From a candidate division KSB1 bacterium (GTDB lineage: Bacteria; Zhuqueibacterota; JdFR-76; DREG01): a stretch of DNA of 32,169 nucleotides. A program made the translations under genes and the position numbers. Every line of letters begins with the position of its first letter. Position 1 is the first letter of the stretch. Below, piece by piece: positions 3,949 to 5,583 of the stretch. Location of the stretch: the NCBI GenBank assembly GCA_022566355.1, contig JADFJB010000049.1, forward strand, positions 1-32,169, read 5' to 3'. Under the pieces are notes generated by a model, which was given only the letters and a program-made list of their open reading frames with translations, ran no database searches and was not told the origin of the DNA.

Positions 3949-4881
3949 TCATTTGGAAAAAATAAATCCCAAAGAAAATATTGAACCACTCGTTGTGTTT
4001 TTACCTGAAAAAATATGGAGAACTTCTGCCTGGATAGCTAAATGATCTTTAATATTATAAATAATAGCTGGACTGATTTTTAGAATATTTTGGTCGCCAA
4101 CGATCACGGAAGGGTTAACACCGCCTCCACCGGGCAAGGGTGTAACGACGGGTAATCCTATTAAGTCAAGTGGTGTAGTTGTATTTTGAATTCCATCCAG
4201 GTTGATCTTGAATAGCAGGCGATTTTTATTATACCCGATTTCAACTGAGTAAAGAATTTCATCATGAAGTCTGCCGGTTCTAACTCTGTAGCCAATACCT
4301 GATGTAAAATAAATAGGTATGGGATGAAAACTAAATCCAAATAATAAATGACCCTCATAATCTAAATCTCCAGTGCCTAAAGGAGCTCCATCATTACTCG
4401 GTCTCTTATCATAGCCTAAAGGCAATTTGACGCCTCCTTGTAGTGACAAAACAATCGGGTTTGTGATTATCGCGTATCGGCTGATAAGAGAAAAATCTCC
4501 TAGACCATTTGTAAATAAGGATTCACGGCTGGCAAGAATGTCTTGAGTTAGATACTTATCCCATTTCGAGTTTAATATTTTAAACGGTACATTTACGATG
4601 CCTGTTAACTTTGAAGTAAAGCCATATTCAGCGTATATATTGATATTGAAATCACGGAAAGAAGCATTTTTAAAAGCAATTTTTTCGGCAAAAATTGCTA
4701 CTTTATTGCCAAGATGATTGAATTCCGACCTGGTGAAAAAGTAGTTTCCCGAAAGTTTGAAATAATATCCACCCTTTTTTTGAGGCCATGCTCCTGCAAA
4801 AGTATTTACACTGAATGATAGAAAAAAAAGAACCAGGATAAAATAACTTGTTGAATAACAAAATATTTTCTGATTCTTCAT
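3949..4881 (-). CDS. Predicted outer-membrane beta-barrel protein
   Basis: About 310 residues with a signal peptide (MKNQK, a hydrophobic stretch and a likely cleavage site after VNTFA) followed by alternating beta-strand patterns and a C-terminal strand ending in phenylalanine-serine-lysine. The motif NGLGDFSLISRY and the strand GGVKLPLGYDKRP resemble the transporter/MetA-pathway phenol-degradation-type barrel family (PF13557-like); this assignment is by pattern recall. The ATG at 4881 gives the better signal peptide; a TTG at 4902 would add seven residues. It lies 24 bases downstream of the DUF3179 gene on the same strand, so the two are likely cotranscribed. The substrate or role is unknown. 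Confidence 0.65.
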   Translation of the reverse strand: MKNQKIFCYSTSYFILVLFFLSFSVNTFAGAWPQKKGGYYFKLSGNYFFTRSEFNHLGNKVAIFAEKIAFKNASFRDFNINIYAEYGFTSKLTGIVNVPFKILNSKWDKYLTQDILASRESLFTNGLGDFSLISRYAIITNPIVLSLQGGVKLPLGYDKRPSNDGAPLGTGDLDYEGHLLFGFSFHPIPIYFTSGIGYRVRTGRLHDEILYSVEIGYNKNRLLFKINLDGIQNTTTPLDLIGLPVVTPLPGGGGVNPSVIVGDQNILKISPAIIYNIKDHLAIQAEVLHIFSGKNTTSGSIFSLGFIFSK

Positions 4882-4905
4882 GACAAGGACAATCCAACTC
4901 AATAA

Positions 4906-5583
4906 TTAATAATCCAAAATTTTTGTATCCGGATGACTGGCCACCCAATCCTTCCATCTTGTTTTTACAGAAATCAATTCCTCCAATTTTCTGTCTTTAT
5001 AAACACCAGCAATACTGGTTAGCCCGTCGGTCCCGGAAAGATGATACCACATACTTTCGGTCTCGTAGTCGAAAAGTACAAAAGTATTTTTGTATGTCCA
5101 ACCGCTGGCACTTAATGTTAAGACTTTATCATCTATTTCACGGCTGTACACGGCAGCCAAATCGACGAGAGGTCAGTAAGCTACAGCGACATGTGCATCT
5201 GCAAATATTTCATTAGCAATTTCATGAATGCTCAATACTCCGATAGAGTATGCACGAGGATCATTGTTAATTTCGGTTGCCAGAACCAAAAAGGTTTCAT
5301 TATCAAAGGGATAACCGGTATCCCCTGGAGAAAGCATTTTTGGATTTAAAATAGGTTTGATAGCAAATGGTCCTAATCCGAATTGAAATTCTGCAGGTTC
5401 CATACCGTATTTTTCTTTGGCATGAGTTACATCCCACTTTTTGCCAGTGTTATCAACGATTAAATACCTTCCATCCTTCATTTCAACTTTTGCTCCATCC
5501 GGTCCGGAAACATCACTACTGCAACTGATCGTTAAGAATAATACAGATACATATTTCATAATTGTTTTTGAATAGGTAAACAT
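4906..5583 (-). CDS. DUF3179 domain protein, candidate selenoprotein (in-frame TGA read as Sec137)
   Basis: Reading through one TGA (5175-5173) gives a continuous 225-residue protein. Its N terminus is a signal or lipoprotein-like segment (Cys21 after FLTIS). Residues ~70-220 match the DUF3179 family: an NPKML segment, FLVLATEINNDPRAYSIGVL, HEIANEIF, then VAVAY-TGA-PLVDLAAVYSR, SGWTYKNTFVLFDYETES and a C-terminal WKDWVASHPDTKIL. In the family the motif is typically Y-C-P-L, so the TGA falls precisely on the conserved cysteine while both sides keep the family signature. The second cysteine of the usual CPLC motif is replaced by valine. The ATG at 5583 follows an AAAGGG site. The molecular function of DUF3179 is not established; a redox role is inference. 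The alternative is a nonsense mutation or sequencing error. I recall a public annotation wording for this family that includes '(seleno)protein', which should be verified. Confidence 0.75.
5135..5175 (-). promoter_or_regulatory. TGA codon with downstream hairpin, possible bacterial SECIS element
   Basis: On the minus strand the TGA (5175-5173) is followed after 14 bases by the stem GGCTG (5158-5154) / CAGCC (5146-5142) with loop CCGTGTA. ATTT (5162-5159) and AAAT (5138-5135) can extend the helix across a three-base bulge. A hairpin about 11-20 bases after UGA is what bacterial SelB-dependent recoding needs. The loop has its G at positions 3 and 5 rather than in the first two positions, so the fit is imperfect. 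Confidence 0.45.

Follow-up and report, generated by a model that had tools for sequence, protein, structure and literature searches.

A DUF3179 lipoprotein gene of a draft bacterial genome almost certainly encodes selenocysteine at an in-frame TGA codon

Results

A DUF3179 reading frame with a single in-frame TGA

The window, a stretch of 32,169 nucleotides, contains a DUF3179 gene and, directly downstream, a co-directional gene (Table 1). The initial annotation gave the coordinates and the motif of the DUF3179 gene correctly and left its strand unstated; the strand is minus. An AAAGGG ribosome-binding site lies upstream of the ATG. The frame contains one internal stop, the TGA in the sequence VAVAY-U-PLV, followed by 88 residues. 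The reading made from the sequence at the outset, namely that this TGA is the only in-frame stop with no other lesion, that it falls on the family cysteine and that about 88 residues of family sequence follow, is borne out in each part: alignment places the TGA on the Cys column, and the Pfam DUF3179 match (PF11376; 1.6e-32, residues 78–224) runs through it. The protein passes the gathering cut-off of PF11376 (113.5 bits versus 27), and the C/U-P-L motif of the family is present as AYUPL at codons 135–139.

The predicted product is a short, one-domain lipoprotein form that covers profile positions 7–148 of 292. Its only cysteine is the lipobox-like Cys21 in the N-terminal signal, a column kept across the subfamily alignment. 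The AlphaFold model is confident (mean pLDDT 91); a Foldseek search of the model against the PDB gave no significant match, and profile searching of PDB sequences with the protein likewise gave none, so no function can be transferred to it. The downstream gene is without a Pfam match, and the same outer-membrane-like neighbor is conserved in the same-family genome G001.

Table 1. Features of the DUF3179 locus in the window.
Feature	Position	Strand	Description
DUF3179 selenoprotein gene (predicted)	5583..4906	minus	225 codons, ATG 5583..5581 to TAA 4908..4906; UGA to Sec at codon 137 (predicted); lipoprotein-type N-terminal signal, Cys21
In-frame TGA, predicted Sec codon	5175..5173	minus	Codon 137, Cys column of DUF3179
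SECIS-type hairpin GGCUG-CCGUGUA-CAGCC	5142..5158	minus	5-bp stem, 7-nt loop, start 14 nt past UGA
Downstream co-directional gene	3949..4902	minus	Predicted outer-membrane-like protein; likely start 4881

Conservation of the TGA column

The source genome (G000), of an uncultured Calditrichota bacterium, is a 4.62-Mb draft in 213 contigs, 98.5% complete. It contains four DUF3179 genes, every one with an in-frame TGA at the cysteine of the C-P-L motif. Many of the DUF3179 matches in the 119 surveyed genomes of relatives also hold a TGA. We aligned a subfamily of 26 members, most of them from independent assemblies, that comprises Calditrichota, an unclassified bacterium and Krumholzibacteriia; named relatives assign the group to Calditrichota. 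The TGA occupies the identical column in 26 of 26 members, the window gene included, and neither an additional stop nor a frameshift was found across the conserved core of the aligned relatives; the initial annotation had named such lesions in sister-strain homologues as a refutation. Its argument that random nonsense mutation would rarely hit this codon is strengthened by the same TGA column in the three other DUF3179 copies of the source genome and in every selenoprotein-type relative aligned, which puts the placement far beyond chance. In genome G001, of a different genus in the same family, the syntenic orthologue (L133) carries the TGA and is likewise followed by the outer-membrane-like gene. 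The comparison of homologues at this column, also proposed at the outset, shows TGA in relatives and Cys in L142, which belongs to a genome (G028) where no selA scored over the cut-off and none of the 10 DUF3179 matches contains a stop.

A sequencing error or a chance nonsense mutation confined to the window gene would account for one stop in a frame that is otherwise intact, but not for the same codon in 25 further sequences, mostly from independent assemblies; codon conservation thus refutes this explanation, to which we assign a negligible probability. Upstream of the TGA and downstream of it alike, pN/pS is about 0.3 between genes whose synonymous sites are nearly saturated, which argues that the stretch 3′ of the TGA is translated and selected.

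The initial annotation also remarked on the loss of the usual second cysteine. Valine is indeed found three residues after the Sec position, but this is the norm of the subfamily (20 of 26 members; Cys in L169) and not special to the window gene. At the LTCISG column, Cys is present in 22 of 26 members and Ser in the window protein. Two further sequences were observed in passing: L147 (G030:C145:3371-3808) is a divergent DUF3179 gene that keeps the TGA column with U-R-V instead of U-P-L and is without the conserved hairpin sequence, and L166:3709-4410 is a DUF3179 paralogue that adjoins a Sec-type gene in a MAG of Calditrichia, with Ser at the Sec column, VYSGFF and no C-P-L motif.

A SECIS-type hairpin downstream of the TGA

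The hairpin lies directly 3′ of the TGA within the coding frame; counting the first base of UGA as 1, columns 18–22 pair with 30–34. Across the alignment, 96.9% of cells are paired, and in three of the five pairs at least one sequence has both bases replaced (G-C to A-U, C-G to G-C and U-A to C-G). The covariation score was matched by none of 500 shuffles, slid versions of the stem each left fewer than half of the cells paired, and RNAalifold recovered the same stem unprompted. The six codons beneath the hairpin have a mean codon identity of 0.86 (0.29 expected from codon use), as compared with 0.38 (0.35 expected) at conserved positions elsewhere in the gene. Here GCC (21/21), GTG (26/26) and TAC (24/24) are fixed while the adjacent Arg codon varies freely, a freezing of synonymous codons that selection on the protein does not explain. 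Together, hairpin compensation and frozen codons, evidence that the initial annotation did not include, make Sec much likelier than a nonsense mutation.

In lying within the coding frame directly 3′ of the UGA, and in its compensatory changes, the hairpin resembles bacterial SECIS elements. The usual bacterial SECIS loop has a G within the first two loop bases, whereas the first G of the CCGUGUA loop is at position 3.

Selenocysteine machinery in the source genome and its relatives

The search for Sec genes that the initial annotation called for was successful in part. The source genome contains selD, which has an in-frame TGA of its own (TCGUAAKISP) and is otherwise intact, whereas family models, a same-family protein query and a conserved tRNA-Sec pattern detected neither selA nor selB nor tRNA-Sec in the 213-contig draft. 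Absence had been put forward as a refutation with respect to a complete genome only, and the source genome is a draft; the absence nonetheless counts against Sec decoding. A joined query of the relatives' selA, selB and neighboring genes identified no gap-flanking contig end in the source genome. The tRNA-Sec pattern, a T-arm pattern, was negative in G002 as well as in the source genome, and its match in G056 (L131) gained no support as a tRNA from ARAGORN. No UCA tRNA occurred among the best tRNA-Sec-like matches of the source genome, a set that is not an exhaustive scan.

SelD (L020; G000:C12:35945-36865) is itself a predicted selenoprotein, with U at the site of the catalytic Cys of SelD, which corresponds to Cys17 in E. 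coli. A further selenoprotein candidate is an AhpC/TSA gene (L174; G000:C53:9735-10175) in which an in-frame TGA takes the place of the catalytic WCPxC Cys codon (RGGWUPYC). Like the TGA at the conserved Cys of DUF3179, those of both genes are at a catalytic Cys site; since the families differ, we regard them as supporting evidence only. Genome-wide reassignment of UGA was rejected: UGA is the ordinary stop of 10 of the 22 ORFs in the window, and most AhpC/TSA homologues are without an in-frame TGA.

The two other same-family genomes have selA adjoining selB, and in G001 tRNA-Sec is on a different contig from selAB, such that two separate assembly gaps may be needed in the source draft. Thirteen other surveyed genomes carry a window-type TGA gene; selA was found in 11 and tRNA-Sec in 10, with at least one of these in each, which suggests that dropout of a single part is common in drafts. 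In two genomes, at L155 (G040:C78) and L157 (G081:C370), a long-type DUF3179 gene with Sec has a tRNA-Sec gene within about 1–2 kb.

A very recent loss of selA, selB and selC in the lineage would leave the TGA genes as relics, truncated at the TGA. Failure to detect selA, selB and tRNA-Sec in an assembly that is 98.5% complete agrees with such a loss, as do the weak matches, the only ones obtained, of the relatives' selAB-flanking genes in the source genome. Against it, six TGA genes of the source genome keep the frame intact past the TGA and none has a second lesion, selD is undamaged except for its own TGA, and the drafts G013, G032, G033 and G060 also miss tRNA-Sec or selA yet keep TGA genes. 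Because the six genes show no decay, the missing genes most likely reflect an assembly gap, with selA, selB and selC presumably located in unassembled DNA, and we consider recent loss improbable.

Insertion of Cys by a special, selC*-like suppressor tRNA-Cys, or of another residue in place of Sec, would fit an assembly in which tRNA-Sec was not detected, and species of tRNA-Cys that resemble tRNA-Sec have been reviewed (PMC7609411). We judge it very improbable: relatives with the same TGA column have a standard tRNA-Sec(UCA), selA and selB; selection acts at the RNA level on the downstream hairpin, for which a simple suppressor would have no need; and selD is retained with no selenouridine synthase found in the source genome, which leaves SelD no other evident use.

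Discussion

Based on these observations, the TGA codon of the window gene is almost certainly decoded as selenocysteine, and the candidacy raised by the initial annotation is supported by the shared TGA column, the hairpin, the frozen codons and selD. We propose, with a probability of roughly 0.93, that the product of this gene is an extracytoplasmic DUF3179 selenoprotein of the lipoprotein type in which UGA 137 is read by SelB under the direction of the hairpin and Sec is the redox centre. SelB and Sec-tRNA(Sec) would decode codon 137, with the hairpin just 3′ of it providing the signal, and from the combined evidence we infer Sec as the residue inserted there. The lipoprotein-type signal suggests that the protein is located outside the cytoplasm.

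A redox role is suggested by the exchange of Sec and Cys between sequences. As the protein has no Cys beyond Cys21, no residue other than Sec137 is a candidate for redox activity; replacing the family Cys, Sec137 would be the sole redox-active residue of the mature protein besides the lipid-anchored Cys. Sec137 would then probably serve on its own as a nucleophile or a centre of the peroxidatic type, with an external thiol as the reductant. In most relatives, the Cys of the LTCISG column could resolve a selenenyl bond.

DUF3179 is a listed selenoprotein family with the motif UxxC/T (reviews PMC9312934 and PMC13188914), and PMC9312934 credits DUF3179 selenoproteins to work published in 2007 on a symbiont of Olavius algarvensis (its ref. 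63). DUF3179 is therefore already known as a bacterial selenoprotein family, and the present case, though real, is largely what would be expected. The window protein belongs to the same Pfam family as the published selenoproteins and has Sec at the same conserved C-P-L Cys. In contrast to the published UxxC/UxxT motif, it has UPLV (UxxV) and no second Cys; it also differs in being a short, one-domain lipoprotein and in its occurrence in Calditrichota. Our literature search returned no relevant link of Calditrichota or Caldithrix with selenoproteins. What is new here is (i) the phylum, (ii) a UxxV motif that no second Cys accompanies and (iii) a SECIS element supported by covariation.

More broadly, the lipoprotein DUF3179 proteins centred on Calditrichota may form a subfamily that is Sec-dependent nearly throughout, with a lone Sec, its own form of SECIS and a redox enzyme activity on an unsolved fold, a proposal to which we give even odds. 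A draft genome may miss Sec genes while plainly holding selenoprotein genes, and absence from a draft is for that reason a poor refutation. Read with the standard code, these DUF3179 genes are cut short at the TGA. With evidence at the RNA level, the present analysis adds Calditrichota to the range of a selenoprotein family that has received little study, and the near-strict use of Sec in the short lipoprotein form offers a good handle on the function of DUF3179.
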